Positions 7,915 to 32,085 of a DNA stretch of 64,000 bases are shown here, one piece after another. Each line of letters begins with the position of its first letter. Positions within the stretch are counted from its first letter, which is position 1. Both the position numbers and the translations under genes were made by a program. The stretch is from Magnetospira sp. QH-2. GTDB taxonomy: Bacteria > Pseudomonadota > Alphaproteobacteria > Rhodospirillales > Magnetospiraceae. The stretch covers positions 2,492,001-2,556,000 of the forward strand of contig NZ_FO538765.1 of assembly GCF_000968135.1 (NCBI RefSeq), in the 5' to 3' direction. Below the pieces are notes generated by a model. It made no database searches. It was not told the origin of the DNA and was given only the letters and a program-made list of their open reading frames with translations.

Positions 7915-10900
7915 TTAAAGGCCCTTCCCTTCGATGCGCCGGGCAAAGGCGCAATTCATCGGCGTTCCGTCAATCATAATGATATTGGCGGCCACCTCCA
8001 CCGGGACCAGACTCCCATCCCGAGCTTTATGATGGGACTGGAATACCAAGGTCCCTTTTTCCGATAGATCCGCCCAATGCTTTTTCCAGGACTCTCCGGT
8101 CCATTCGGTCGAGCTGATATCGGCAACCTTGAGACCGATCAGTTCCTCGCGCTCATACCCCAGATTGCTGCTGGCCATTTCGTTGACATCAAGGATGGTT
8201 GAATCCTCGTCGATCAGGAAGAACGCCTCGGGCGCCCTTTCCATCGCCGCCCGAGAAATCTTCAAGGAATGCTCAAATTTGTGGCGCTCGGTCATATCGT
8301 CAATGACCTTGATGATCGACGAGGGCTCTCCGTGGTCATCACGGACCAGCGACACCGACACATCGGCCCAGATGATCGAGCCATCCTTTGTCAGATAGCG
8401 CTTCTCGGTTTCGTAATGGTCCCTTTCGCCACGTACCAGCTGATCAAAAGGATCCATGTCGTTTTCAAGGTCGTCTGGGTAGGTAATATCCCGGATGGCC
8501 AGGTGCGCCATTTCGTTGTCTGAATATCCCAATAGGCCCCGAAGCGTCCGATTGGTCAGGATGGGACGCCCTTCCATGTCCAACTGCAAGATGCCGATAG
8601 GCGATGAATCGAAGATGACCCGGAATCGGGCTTCGCTGGCCCGCAGGTTCTCTTCGGTCTGGCGCCGCTCGGTAACATCCCGGACCACACCGTACATTTT
8701 GAACGCATTGCCGTCTTCATCGCGGACCACCGCGCCGGTCTCAGACATCCAGCGAACTGTCTTGCCATCGGGATAAAGGATCCGATGTTCGATGTTGTAG
8801 TCTGAATTTCCCTTTACCGCACTGGCAACGGAGGATTGCACGAAGTTCCGATCCTCGGGATGGATGGTATTAAGAAAGGCGTCGTAGTTCCCTGGGAACT
8901 GGCCCTTCTTATAGCCAAACATGGTTTCGATGTTGGCCGACCAGTAAAGGTCGTTGTTCTCAACGTTCCATTCCCAAGCGCCGATGTTGGACGCGAGCTG
9001 AGCCAATTCGTACCGGCGGGTGGTCTCGCGCAGGGTGTTTTGGATTTTCTTCAGGTCATCAATCTCGTTGAGTACGATGACCACGCCCGCGCGCACGTGG
9101 TTGCTGATCTGATAAGGCAGCACCCGCAATTGGAACCATTCTTCGGTCTCGGTCATCACCTCGCGGGAGACCTGCTCTCCACCGTCGTTGACCCGCTGAG
9201 CGTATTCCAACAGATCGCAATCTCGCAGCCGATGAGACAAATGACCAAAGGGTCGTCCGGTATCCGTGTCCAAGACATTGATCACCCGGGAGGCGCTGGC
9301 GGTAAACCGGCGCACATCCAAGTTCTCGTCCAGGAAAATCGAGATAACCTTTGTACTATCGACAAAATTATCCAGATCACTGGTCAGTTCGCTGAGTTCG
9401 GTGATCTTGCTCTGATACTCGGCGTTGACCGTGATCAACTCTTCATTGACCGATTGCAGTTCCTCGTTGGTACTTTGCAGTTCCTCGTTGGAAGCGACCA
9501 GTTCTTCGTTGGTGGCCTGCAGTTCCTCGTTGGAGGTTTCCAGTTCCTCGATGGATGCCTGCAGGTTTTCCCGGGTGAACTGTAGTTCCTGTTCCAAATC
9601 GGCGATGCGTTGCTCGGCTTCACGGGACACGTCGTAGGTACTGGACTCGGCCTGTGGCAGGCGCGGGGTGGTATCCTTGGCTTCACTGAGCATAACCACC
9701 GCCAGACGGTCCTTGCCACGCTGTTCGGGCAAGGGCTTGACGCGCGCGTTGACAGTGACCTTTTCGCCAGCCGTATTGGTGATCCGCATGTTGGTGAACG
9801 AGACTTCCTTGCCCGAGTTGAAGCTCTTTGACAATCCGGTGGATAGCGGAATGGCCAACTCGCGCACCACGGCCTTGGTCACGTCATTGACCATCTTGCC
9901 GGATGGGAAAACCAGGAAGTGGCGGGTATCGCCGATGACATGAACGATTTCCTGGCGGTCATTGACCACGATCATGAACGGCAGGTCTTCTTCGGCCAAG
10001 GCTTCCAGCAATCGACCGAGCGTGCGTTCCTCCTCGTAAGCCTGTTGTGCCGACGAATGAGCGGTGGCGGGGCGTGGGAAGGATGGCGGACGGTATTGGC
10101 CGGTGATGCTGAACCGATCCGAAGAGATCAGAGATTTGCGGCTGCCTTTGGAGCGGAAGATTTTCCAGCGATTGCTCACCGGCTCGAAATAGATTTCAGC
10201 CTCGCCGATGGATTCACTGGTCCCGAGCACCAAAATACCATTGGGCTTGAGAGAAAAATTCATCGATTCCATGACTTTGTGCTGCAAGACCTGTTGCAAA
10301 TAGATGAGCAGGTTGCGGCAGCTGATGATATCGATGTTGGTGAACGGCGGGTCTTTGATCAGGTTATGCTTGGCAAACACCACCATCTCGCGGATCTGTC
10401 GCACGATGCGGTAGTCGTCACCTTTGCGGAAAAAATACTTGCTAAGCAACGCCGGGGGGATATCCGCCGAAACGCCTTCGGAAAACACCCCGGTGGACGC
10501 GCGCATGATGGCGTCTTGATCCACATCGGTGGCGAAGATCTTCACATCGACGGACTTGCCGATGTTCTCCATCACCTCGCGGAATGCGATGGCATAGGTA
10601 TAGGCCTCTTCGCCCGTGGAACAGCCAGCCACCCAGACCCGCAGTTCTCGCCCTTGGGCCTCTTCGAGCATCTCTGGCAGAAATTTCTCGCGCAACAGAT
10701 CGAACACATCCGGGTCGCGGAAGAAATTGGTCACGCCAATCAATAGTTCCTGATACAGCGCCCCTTGCTCGGTCTTGTTCAATTCCAAGAAGCGCACATA
10801 GTCGTCCAGGCTTTCAACCTGATTGACCGTCATGCGGCGTTCGATGCGGCGTACCACTGTATTGGGCTTGTAGAAAGTGAAGTCGATCTTCGAGCGTTCC

Positions 10901-16399: not shown

Positions 16400-16593
16400 C
16401 AGTTCTCCCCTTTGTGTCTCGATTGATTCTACCTACTCCATTGGGCAGGATCCACCCTGCCCAAGGTGGGGAAGAATGCCCAAAAACGACCGATCATGCA
16501 AAGAAGATTTGTGACTCTTTTGTATTGCCACTGCGAAATCCATGGATTGGTATGTTATCCTGCGGCCTATTGGCGAGAGTCTTGGAGAATTTC

Positions 16594-17592
16594 ATGCGAT
16601 TGGTCTTTCTTTTCAGTCTGGTTGTGTTCGCTGGTGCGGCGAGCGTTGCGCAGGCCGAAGACGAGGCCGCTCTGGATGATCGCGGCACATTCACCATGGT
16701 CTTGGAAAACGATCTGTTCGGCGGCGGGACCGACCAGCATTACACCCATGGCACCCGCTTTGCCTGGCTATCCCCCGAAGGGGATGTGCCGCCAAAAGTG
16801 GAGGAATGGGCCAATCTGATGCCGCTGTTCGCCGAAGGAGGCAGCAAGCGCGTTTCCTATACCCTGGGACAAAACATCTATACCCCGAGCGATATCCGCA
16901 TTGCCCAGTTGATCCCCAATGAGCGCCCTTATGCGGGCTGGCTTTATGGCGGTGTCGGGCTGGCTTCGGACACCGGCAGGCGCCTGGACAACCTGCAACT
17001 GTCCATTGGCATGGTCGGACCGGCGGCCCTGGCCGGAGAGACTCAGGCTTTTGTGCATAACATTATCGATAGCCCCGATCCCAAGGGCTGGAGCCACCAG
17101 TTGCACAACGAACCGGGGATCGTGCTGACCTATGAGCGGCAATGGCGCAACTGGTACGAATTCGATTTCCTCGGATTGGAAGTGGATGCCACGCCCCGCG
17201 CCGGAGGCAGCTTGGGCAACATCTATACCCACGCCGAAGTCGGCCTAACCGCGCGTGTCGGCGATGATCTACCCTCGGACTACGGCCCGCCGCGGATCCG
17301 CCCCAGCCTGCCCGGATCCGACTTCTTCCTCCCCACCGAGGGTCTCGGCTGGTACTTATTCGCGGGAGTCGGTGGACGACTGGTGGGCCGCAACATTTTC
17401 CTGGATGGCAACAGCTTTCGCGGCAGCCATAGCGTCGACAAAGAACGCCTGGTTGGCGATCTGCAAGGGGGCTTGGCCGTCACCTGGGGCCGCGTGCGGG
17501 TCGCCTATACCCATATCATCCGGTCCAAGGAATACGTCGGCCAAGGGGCCATTGACCGCTTCGGGGCGTTGTCATTGTCGGTGCGCTTTTAG
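16594..17592 (+). CDS. LpxR-like outer-membrane lipid A deacylase (DUF2219)
   Basis: A 332-residue exported protein. It has an N-terminal signal peptide of about 21 residues ending AQA before EDEAAL. The mature N-terminus carries LENDLFGGGTDQHYTHG, the hallmark of the LpxR / DUF2219 outer-membrane beta-barrel family, and further on HQLHNEPGIVLTYERQW with the His and Glu region. The protein ends in LSLSVRF, a typical barrel C-terminus with final Phe. LpxR removes the 3'-acyloxyacyl chain from lipid A in Salmonella; the same activity is inferred. GGAG lies 7 bases ahead of the chosen ATG; the longer in-frame extension upstream lacks a signal peptide. Confidence 0.85.
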   Translation: MRLVFLFSLVVFAGAASVAQAEDEAALDDRGTFTMVLENDLFGGGTDQHYTHGTRFAWLSPEGDVPPKVEEWANLMPLFAEGGSKRVSYTLGQNIYTPSDIRIAQLIPNERPYAGWLYGGVGLASDTGRRLDNLQLSIGMVGPAALAGETQAFVHNIIDSPDPKGWSHQLHNEPGIVLTYERQWRNWYEFDFLGLEVDATPRAGGSLGNIYTHAEVGLTARVGDDLPSDYGPPRIRPSLPGSDFFLPTEGLGWYLFAGVGGRLVGRNIFLDGNSFRGSHSVDKERLVGDLQGGLAVTWGRVRVAYTHIIRSKEYVGQGAIDRFGALSLSVRF

Positions 17593-17652: not shown

Positions 17653-17754
17653 TGTCATGTTTGTCCGGGCCCGATTGGACCCGACATGTCATGTTTGTCC
17701 GGGCCCGATTGGACCCGACATGTCATGTTTGTCCGGGCCCGATTGGACCCGACA
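17653..17754. repeat. three perfect tandem copies of a 34-bp palindromic unit
   Basis: The unit at 17653-17686, 17687-17720 and 17721-17754 is repeated without a single change. Each contains an imperfect hairpin, GGGCCC-GATT-GGACCC, followed by CGACATGTCATG. Perfect identity suggests recent expansion or homogenisation. A degenerate single copy lies at 1418-1445. Confidence 0.95.
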
Positions 17755-17802
17755 GGCGCCAACAGGCTGCTGAAAAAGTCCGATTTCGAGCCTGTGGCGA
17801 CA

Positions 17803-17888
17803 CATGCTTCGACAAGCTCAGCATGAGGACCTTTGAATTTTCAACATGTTAGCCTCACCCTGAGCTTGTCGAAGGGCGAGGCGGGCCG
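17803..17888. repeat. dispersed inverted-repeat element, copy B (inverted)
   Basis: Inverted arms CTTCGACAAGCTCA (17808-17821) and TGAGCTTGTCGAAG (17860-17873). The right flank GGGCGAGGCGGGCCG matches the left flank of the copy at 3100-3184 in reverse complement, so the two copies are in opposite orientation. The inner loop sequences differ. Confidence 0.8.
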
Positions 17889-17923
17889 TAGAACAACACT
17901 TTCTTAGCAGCCTGCGAAAAGCT

Positions 17924-19372
17924 TTAGTGCCAGCGAACGGTGTTGCGTCCATCTTGCTTTGCTTGGTAAAGGGCACCGTCGGCCCGACCCAGCAAGCGGT
18001 CGGCATTGTCGTCCTCGTGCACCTGAGTGACCCCCAGACTCGCCGTTATGGGCGCGCCATCCGGCAACTTCGCCAGGGAGGCCTGTTCAATGGCCAGCCT
18101 GATTTTCTCGGCCAGGGTTATGGCATTCTTCAAGGGGCAGTCGTGGGCCAGAACGATCAGTTCCTCCCCGCCCCAGCGGCACAGAACATCCGAACTGCGC
18201 ACATCCTTGTCTACGATTTCGGCAATTTCACGGATCACCCGGTCCCCTTCAAGATGGCCCAGCGTGTCATTGACCCGCTTGAAATGGTCAATATCCAGCA
18301 GCAGGATCGAAAACGGTTTGTTGTCCCGTTGATGGCGCTTCAGCGCCTGATCCATGGTCACGTCGAAAACTGCCCGGTTGCCAATACCCGTGAGACCATC
18401 GGTGGTCGCCATGGATTCCAGCCGATTGTGGAATCGGTTCACCGTATACATGACGATCAACAAAGTCAGGCCAACGACTCCTAGTCCGACGACGGTATTG
18501 GTCAAGAGGCTTTCGCGGATTCCCGCCAAGGCATCGGATTCCCGCTGCTCCACCACCACCCGCCATTTGAGTTCCGGGATATGGCGGGTGCTGACCAACA
18601 TGGTTTCGCCATCCCGGTCGTATTCGTAGAAACCTTGGTCGGTGGTCAGAATATCCTTGGCGATGGCCGCCATACCCGGCGCGGATAGCAGGGAATCCTC
18701 GACGACCACGGCGCCTTCTGAGCGCACCATAATGGCCCCTTCGTCATCGACGAAATACACATGCCGCCCAAAATGCTGTTTGTAGCGGTCGACAATCCGG
18801 GCCACCGTCCCGAACTCCAGCCCCACCCCCGTAGCGGCCAGATAGTTTCCTTCTCGGTCAAATACTTTGTGATTGATGAAAATGGTCAGAGCGTTTTCCT
18901 GCTCTTCATTGGAATCCACATTGAGTTCGTGATCTTCGCGCATATCCCGAACGCGGAAGAACCAGGCATCCTTGGGATCCGTCTCTGAAACCACCTGGGT
19001 GACACCGCTGAAGTGGTAGTAATTGCGCGTGGCATCGGAAATGAGAAAACTGGTGAACAGGTCGTAATTCCGCCGGATCTCGTCCAAATAGCGAATCAGT
19101 TTTTCCGGGTCTTTCTCGCCTGAGAGTAGCCAGTCCTGAACAAAGGTATCGGCCGCCATCAAGGAGGCGACGAATACCGGCCGCAACAGGTCGCGTTGTA
19201 TCTCGGAGTAGATATTATTGCTGGTGAGCGGCAATTCGTTGTCGATCAGGGCCAGACGCAGGCTGTTCTTGGACACATAATAGCTGGTCAGGTTGGTGGT
19301 TAGAAACCCGGCCACCAGAATCAGACTGATGACCGCAACCAACGGCCCGCGTACGGAAAAGACACTTTTCAT
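17924..19372 (-). CDS. diguanylate cyclase with periplasmic sensor domain
   Basis: A 482-residue membrane protein. A transmembrane helix (about 8-30) and a second one (about 292-315) flank a ~260-residue periplasmic double-Cache-like domain. The cytosolic GGDEF domain (about 325-482) has the active-site RWGGEELI and, five residues earlier, RSSD, the c-di-GMP inhibitory I-site. It should make c-di-GMP from GTP and be product-inhibited. The start is the second codon of a TTG-ATG pair; ATG is preferred. It is a single gene, with the repeat region beyond its 3' end. Confidence 0.93.
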   Translation of the reverse strand: MKSVFSVRGPLVAVISLILVAGFLTTNLTSYYVSKNSLRLALIDNELPLTSNNIYSEIQRDLLRPVFVASLMAADTFVQDWLLSGEKDPEKLIRYLDEIRRNYDLFTSFLISDATRNYYHFSGVTQVVSETDPKDAWFFRVRDMREDHELNVDSNEEQENALTIFINHKVFDREGNYLAATGVGLEFGTVARIVDRYKQHFGRHVYFVDDEGAIMVRSEGAVVVEDSLLSAPGMAAIAKDILTTDQGFYEYDRDGETMLVSTRHIPELKWRVVVEQRESDALAGIRESLLTNTVVGLGVVGLTLLIVMYTVNRFHNRLESMATTDGLTGIGNRAVFDVTMDQALKRHQRDNKPFSILLLDIDHFKRVNDTLGHLEGDRVIREIAEIVDKDVRSSDVLCRWGGEELIVLAHDCPLKNAITLAEKIRLAIEQASLAKLPDGAPITASLGVTQVHEDDNADRLLGRADGALYQAKQDGRNTVRWH

Positions 19373-19489
19373 CAAGACCCTGTGGCATCGCCAATTCGTT
19401 CAACTCAAACCGGCATGACTATCAGGGTTTAGGCAGGCCGAATGCAAGCGGCTTATGTTCAGTGGCGGGAATAATACCCGGGACCGCGT

Positions 19490-31912: not shown

Positions 31913-31964
31913 AGAGCGCCCATCTAGAGCGCCCATCTAGAGCGCCCATCTAGAGCGCCCATCT
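31913..31964. repeat. four tandem copies of a 13-bp unit
   Basis: AGAGCGCCCATCT is repeated four times without change, just upstream of the Rcp1-like receiver start and about 120 bases before prfB. The period is not a helical-turn multiple, and the unit is not palindromic. It may be a slippage-prone tract. Confidence 0.95.
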
Positions 31965-32085
31965 AACGACGCCCCTTGTCCGCGACCCCATTACCGGCTA
32001 CACCGAAGCCGGTATTCGCGCTCTGGCACTTGTTCCGCCGGAACCCGGATTATAGACTGTTATTACATCGCATACAACAGAGGCC

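Follow-up and report, generated by a model that had tools for sequence, protein, structure and literature searches.

A triplicated hairpin arm in Magnetospira sp. QH-2 probably belongs to an old copy of a two-hairpin element flanked by TA

The window analyzed here, a stretch of 64,000 nucleotides from Magnetospira sp. QH-2 (contig NZ_FO538765.1, positions 2,492,001 to 2,556,000), contains three 34-bp units in direct succession at 17653-17754. A first-pass annotation of the sequence called them identical, and there are indeed no differences among them. Such an array raises the question of whether it is a local accident, a cluster of functional sites, or a visible part of something mobile. The features needed to answer it are as follows.

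1380-1453, + strand: second copy of the element in the window, shortened by loss of the inner part of hairpin 1, with CTAG as left end and CTGG as right end (covariance E 1.3e-11)
16414-17592, + strand: LpxR family gene, left neighbor, directed at the array (open reading frame; Pfam PF09982, E 1.2e-110, match reaching the last profile position)
17653-17754, + strand: array of three identical 34-bp units (TGTCATGTT plus the second-hairpin arm of the element; direct sequence comparison)
17755-17762, + strand: right end of an old copy of the element, GGCGCCAA (alignment with the array collapsed)
17763-17914, no strand assigned: repeat with 17-bp inverted ends, CAGGCTGCTGAAAAAGT / ACTTTCTTAGCAGCCTG, abutting the right end of the element (inverted-repeat pair I5)
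17924-19375, - strand: GGDEF gene with dCache_1, right neighbor, directed at the array (open reading frame; Pfam PF00990, E 8e-45)

The array and the family behind it

The array lies between the convergent LpxR family and GGDEF-dCache_1 genes. The bases flanking it do not continue the repeat, giving exactly 3.0 copies, and the breakpoints of the triplication share zero bases, so the first duplication took place without junction homology. The region matches the covariance model of a repeat family, described below, at 17674-17762 (E 2.2e-4). Immediately right of the third unit, GGCGCCAA is similar to GGCGCTAA, the right end of other copies of the element, and has apparently decayed from GGCG-CTAA, a right end present in other copies. 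No resemblance to the beginning of the element could be detected in the left part of the array, where the score falls below the shuffled mean. The mobile unit is a 101-bp element with two hairpins, and the array is not that unit but a section of a single old copy, triplicated in place. Recent expansion, proposed in the first-pass annotation, is plausible for the array from the identity of its units, but what has moved is the element and not the array. Each unit had also been described as containing a hairpin. A single unit folds no better than its shuffles (z -0.87); folding appears with two units (z -3.0) and with the whole array and its flanks (z -4.8). The stem of the unit is mismatched where the GGGTCC of the family is GGGCCC in the array.

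Several observations on the neighborhood and the rest of the window stand beside these. The repeat that abuts the array (17763-17914), which has ends CAGGCTGCTGAAAAAG and contains inverted repeats of CTTCGACAAGCTCA, is present elsewhere in the genome, and an IS110-type insertion sequence (IS) seems to be inserted in copies of it, with CTTTTTCAG at the left end of the IS. At gathering thresholds, Rfam finds two tRNAs in the window and nothing else. A search with the LpxR protein in a collection of genome contigs gave no confirmed relatives. Near the start of a response-regulator-like reading frame, window positions 31913-31965 hold a perfect 13-bp tandem repeat of 4.1 copies (AGAGCGCCCATCT), the unit length of which is not a multiple of three, and positions 9454-9590 hold imperfect 21/42/63-bp repeats within a 1231-residue reading frame, a repetitive stretch of the EELQ/NEEL type.

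The first-pass annotation had suggested a family of sites or a mobile repeat, and had held that an absence of further copies, together with absence of the array from sister strains, would point to slippage. Further copies are abundant. In the 4,021,307 + 31,063 bases searched (4.05 Mb), the 21-base core with up to three mismatches has 93 matches at 92 places, one match, at 1129858, being an opposite-strand view; the reversed-pattern control has 0. Within the window the core pattern has four occurrences, whereas shuffling predicts 0.01. Repetition at 34-bp spacing is seen at the array alone among the 92 places. A near-full-length element of 101 bp, consisting of two hairpins and a linker, is present at 61 of the 92; two more located by their left ends bring these copies to 63, of which 50 are distinct. 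With the 107-base consensus, BLAST gives at least 48 matches covering at least 97 of the 107 positions (a lower bound, from 40 of 131 candidates scored), and 11 of these are identical copies, hence the element has spread recently. These identical copies, together with clean empty sites, bear out the suggestion of a mobile repeat. The distant copy reported at 1418-1445 also exists, but is larger, extending over 1380-1453, and the hemerythrin gene said to lie downstream of it was not confirmed, a 55-residue piece giving no Pfam match.

The intact element has a tip G, hairpin 1, a linker with ATCGATTCCAATA, hairpin 2, and a tip C. Shorter forms either lack the inner part of hairpin 1 or have both arms fused at the shared GATT loop. 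In the copies at L258, G000:C1:2335185-2335291, and L180, the tip of the left arm looks like that of the right arm or has given way to it, an arrangement that an exchange of the two arms would give. Every neighboring pair of elements seen is head-to-tail. Six such pairs compared base by base differ at 0, 1, 3, 4, 4, and 13 positions, and a seventh differs in length, so the pairs are not all recent duplications. Their uniformity counts against insertion in random orientation unless long palindromes are lost, and loss of long inverted palindromes could explain it. A separate observation concerns the second contig, where 95 bases at L264:1471-1565 are 84% identical to two Sphingomonas plasmids that have no annotated gene there; the stretch is possibly a transfer origin or a repeat.

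Target site, structure, and relatives in other genomes

The insertion rule can be read from paralogous sites within a host repeat. Empty sites have the sequence TTTTGC-CTAA-GGGG at five places (L167-L170 and L177, the last two diverging further right), while four filled sites have TTTTGC-CTA-(101 bp)-TAA-GGGG; a fifth has CTAT on the right. The net insertion is thus 103 bp, with TA duplicated on both sides of the element, and the target is TA, mostly within YTAR and usually CTAG. The outer border bases vary, the left being mostly C and sometimes T, and the right mostly G and sometimes A or T; the inner border bases are constantly G and C in young copies, with one exception (576785). Variable outer bases and fixed inner bases fit duplication of TA at YTAR and not duplication of four bases. 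A four-base CTAG duplication was rejected because the filled sites have CTAG on the left and CTAA on the right, and the empty sites CTAA. In agreement with duplication of TA, the paralogous copies at 314869 and 3243377 interrupt a reading frame that in another paralogue, without the element, is continuous across the site.

Other repeats and ISs meet the element in several ways. Several copies of a larger repeat, whose long inverted ends read about CGCGTTTAATATGACCCATTGTGA, host the element (family at L011, L020, L027, L167-L169). An IS1380-family IS lies at the border of the element at one place (L203), and an IS5-family IS at the left border at three. In an IS of the RNA-guided IS110 family, the element lies in the non-coding DNA upstream; copies containing it are at G000:C1:258970, 934006, 996483, 2105640, and 3941287. 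In two other copies (L206 and L207) an IS5-type IS occupies the same CTAG.

The consensus folds as RNA into two hairpins with 35 pairs at -56.2 kcal/mol. In 17 copies chosen by the authors for diversity, which also served for the covariance model, changes on both sides of a pair occupy 14 cells against 5.1 +/- 1.8 in shuffled alignments, and the covariation score is 0.126 against 0.088; none of 500 shuffles was as high on either measure. Two other measures on the same copies were not significant: the number of pairs with both-sided changes (5 versus 3.3 shuffled, 64/500 as high) and the number of pair types (20 versus 19.4, 227/500 as high). In the set of 50 distinct copies, pairing holds in 96.3% of cells, and double changes occupy 18 cells where slid controls have 2-11; they are spread over 6 pairs, a number inside the slid-control range of 2 to 10. 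Compensatory change has maintained the hairpins, which may be retained because the arms are needed for transposition, or because transcribed hairpins are tolerated or useful at 3' ends. The sequence GANTC is found in the loop of arm 1 in 43 of the 50 distinct copies and in the linker in 46, the density across the whole window being 3.17 per kb. Imperfect terminal inverted repeats are demonstrated statistically over many lineages and are weak in this genome: with one representative per genome (13 of 19 genomes, the other 6 having none), 94 of 182 positions match against a control of 0.25, with 7/14 in this genome and a minimum of 1/14 in the representative of G393.

The element first appeared to be restricted to the genus. 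Plain BLAST over 60 related genomes, which include no other member of the same genus, yielded, beyond this genome itself, a single match of 21 bases in G042, and the exact 21-mer core had 0 matches in collections of genome contigs and viral contigs, from which near records are possibly excluded. Restriction to the genus was overturned by the covariance search, in which the G042 place proved to be a real relative. The model matches in 9 of 99 other relatives (E down to 3.6e-14) and in 9 of 388 other genomes of the class (E down to 2.2e-17), both counts being lower bounds, with at most 39 and at most 10 candidates, respectively, scored per genome under strict filters. The architecture is common to these 18 other genomes; the stem sequences differ but pair. 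Most aligned distant copies have CTAG or TTAG at the left end and GATCA or AGCA at the foot of arm 1, and the linker TGATCGATTCCAATA is partly common to most of them. Of 38 distant copies, 34 contain GANTC at least once (45 matches gave 39 loci, of which L259, at a contig end, was left out). Since the model joins species-specific repeats of 19 genomes by structure, elements described under separate names may be one family; a surface-level search of the literature, mostly outside subscription papers, found no class-wide account of such elements.

Mobilization and placement at stop codons

At a probability of roughly 0.78, the array is best explained as what is left of one decayed copy of a mobile element that is non-autonomous, the second hairpin arm of which was locally triplicated, and which had inserted at TA/YTAR, likely moved in trans by a TA-duplicating DDE transposase. 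The old copy would have inserted at a TA within YTAR, leaving TA on both sides; the array would then have arisen by a duplication without junction homology followed by slippage between the 34-bp repeats. At 101 bp the element is too short to encode a transposase, hence movement in trans is most likely, and TA on both sides, the YTAR/CTAG preference, and the terminal repeats together point to a DDE enzyme. Left-end matches offered no such enzyme: among the 24 places read that had no listed right core (from 100 of 113 left-end matches listed), no transposase with the left end of the element was recognized, and at the 12 of them without a clear right part none was recognized by eye within up to 1.4 kb.

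As the mobilizing enzyme, an IS630-type transposase is favored but unproven. According to the accessible part of PMC2170065, IS630-family transposition duplicates TA, and a title cited there gives the preference as TA within CTAG. The genome has one IS630-type match. Of the 14 positions that follow the first G, its tips share 9 with the element; the chance of 0.004 applies to one comparison, and three IS families were compared. The corresponding agreement is 6/14 for the IS1380 type and 2/14 for the IS5 type, and no set of ends is a clear match. By end sequence, the resident IS630-type enzyme may be the best candidate driver, the evidence being weak.

Mobilization by an IS5-family transposase (IS5_3, IS427-like), which would parallel the pairing of IS711 with Bru-RS in Brucella, is unlikely. 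That IS is itself found in YTAR sites flanked by TA, including the three places at the left border of the element, and in the accessible parts of PMC2266754 and PMC3163539 IS711 is reported to prefer Bru-RS repeats. However, its tips are those that agree least with the element, and a shared choice of target would explain the presence of the IS in the border without shared mobilization.

Rather improbable is a REPIN-type origin, in which two REP-like hairpins are moved as single-stranded DNA by a RAYT tyrosine transposase, with CTAG in place of GTAG. The element does have inverted, bulged hairpins with a fixed tetranucleotide at both ends and stem sequences that are species-specific in a conserved structure, and its flanking TA can be taken for an invariant end sequence. 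The genome also has three Y1 transposase genes; one scores 80.4 bits, past the RAYT cut-off of 80, and two element copies lie as a pair about 2.4 kb away from it. However, by eye there is no element within about 700 bases either side of any of the three genes, the outermost border bases change from target to target, and, according to PMC8266576, replacing GTAG by CTAG lowers cleavage by one RAYT. Orientation is likewise independent of the direction of replication (34 versus 31 of 65 independent copies, p 0.80, with origin and terminus taken from sampled GC skew, 17 copies inside other repeats or duplicated segments left out, and the array members collapsed to one). A run of plus-strand copies at 0.35-1.9 Mb had by eye suggested lagging-strand insertion, yet the full count shows no link to replication; 41 of the 65 copies are on the plus strand overall (p 0.046).

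Less probable again is a functional role for the array, in which hairpins that bind a protein or terminate transcription would have been selected as a set of three between convergent genes. Its position in a convergent gap, a placement that copies of the family favor, and its strong structure as a set (z -4.8) agree with such a function. Against this, its repetition at 34-bp spacing has no parallel among the 92 places, there are 0 terminator-like sites, the unit stem is mismatched, and the zero homology at the breakpoints points to accident. Plain local slippage unrelated to any family agrees with the exact identity and the number of the units, but accounts for the triplication and not for the sequence, the unit holding the 21-base core found at 92 places, and as the whole explanation it is refuted.

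Gene calls around the copies were the authors' own, based on codon usage and not on annotation, and would miss a gene interrupted by the element. Of 68 independent copies 16 could not be placed; the other 52 are in 26 convergent, 21 tandem, and 5 divergent gaps, against 71 convergent, 195 tandem, and 65 divergent among 331 gaps of the same sampled DNA (element gaps included). A border coincides with the stop codon of a called gene in 25 of 78 copies, excluding those carried by other repeats, compared with 15 of 297 CTAG sites and 125 of 1727 YTAR sites. Fourteen copies inside other repeats or duplicated segments were left out of the gene-context and stop-codon counts, and the array members were collapsed to one in the former but not in the latter. 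A cruder measure, which asks whether an open frame of 100 codons or more terminates at the border, gives for this genome (own copies with a recognized left end) one border in 32 of 65 against 411 of 1542 control YTAR sites and both borders in 4/65 against 26/1542; for the distant genomes the values are 22 of 38 against 34 of 217 and 6/38 against 2/217, respectively.

Of seven scanned proteins that end at a border, two are uninformative and five have a domain lacking no more than two positions of its profile (response regulator 110/111, MoeA_C 71/72, aldose epimerase 298/299, cytochrome c' 121/121, and ThiF 236/238). It follows from the sequence that a YTAR target has a stop on either strand before insertion and that the G and C tips recreate a stop afterwards. 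With TAG or TAA recreated on both sides, insertion into a stop codon leaves proteins intact, and the overrepresentation of copies at stop codons and in convergent gaps agrees with this. Such an overrepresentation could arise from a real preference or equally from selection against harmful sites. A wider reading is put forward tentatively, with the odds somewhat against it: a class-wide two-hairpin family suited to docking at stop codons would settle at the shared end of convergent genes with the proteins unchanged, and its arms would serve as two-way RNA hairpins at 3' ends, under selection. Docking of this kind would be a simple and testable reason why such elements multiply in gene-dense genomes.

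Comparison with known systems

The following comparisons rest on published descriptions, as far as the accessible parts of the papers give them, and not on sequence. The closest in kind are the CcrM-associated intergenic repeats (CIR) of Caulobacter, described in PMC2229807 as about 110 bp with two arms, a linker, GANTC in the terminal loop, and TA ends. The element here is 101 bp plus TA, has two long arms of 35 pairs and a linker, carries GANTC in both terminal loop (43/50) and linker (46/50), and has TA at both termini. In the same source CIR are reported to be absent from inside genes, whereas the copies at 314869 and 3243377 are intragenic.

The Bru-RS repeats of Brucella are 103-106 bp, and IS711 inserts into them at YTAR with TA duplicated (PMC2266754, PMC3163539, PMC10800456, and PMC2267715, each in part). 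The 103-bp net insertion is of the same size, and an IS5-type IS of YTAR sites flanked by TA likewise lies at its border in three places. Bru-RS repeats are palindromic and serve as landing sites of an IS; so does the element, including for the IS1380-type IS at another border. The two differ in host organism, and placement at stop codons is not mentioned in the accessible Bru-RS descriptions.

RUP of Streptococcus pneumoniae is given in PMC2229807 as about 107 bp with a TA target and proposed mobilization by IS630-Spn1. Size, target, the proposed IS630-family mobilization, and high identity among copies are shared; the element differs in that its ends match the resident IS630-type IS only partly (9/14) and in having two independent arms instead of end-to-end pairing. 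REPINs are described in PMC3116915, and GTAG/CGTC REPs with the requirements of RAYTs in PMC3733652 and PMC8266576; the element does not fit the latter. REPINs and BIMEs share with the element an inverted pair of hairpins and a fixed terminal tetranucleotide, but the element has CTAG/YTAR and not GTAG, is inserted with flanking TA, and has neither a directly flanking RAYT gene nor a replication-strand bias. As a MITE with TA duplication, it shows a target-site duplication in five empty versus four filled sites and terminal inverted repeats at 94 of 182 positions.

The array is tied to a mobile family, and the paralogous empty sites of that family give the insertion rule, TA within YTAR, for an element of 101 bp. 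A surface-level search of the literature, again mostly outside subscription papers, found no report of stop-codon placement for elements of this sort. In size, two arms, TA ends, loop GANTC, and service as a landing site for a YTAR-targeting IS, the element resembles CIR and Bru-RS in kind, and the excess of its borders at stop codons over control YTAR sites is new relative to both.
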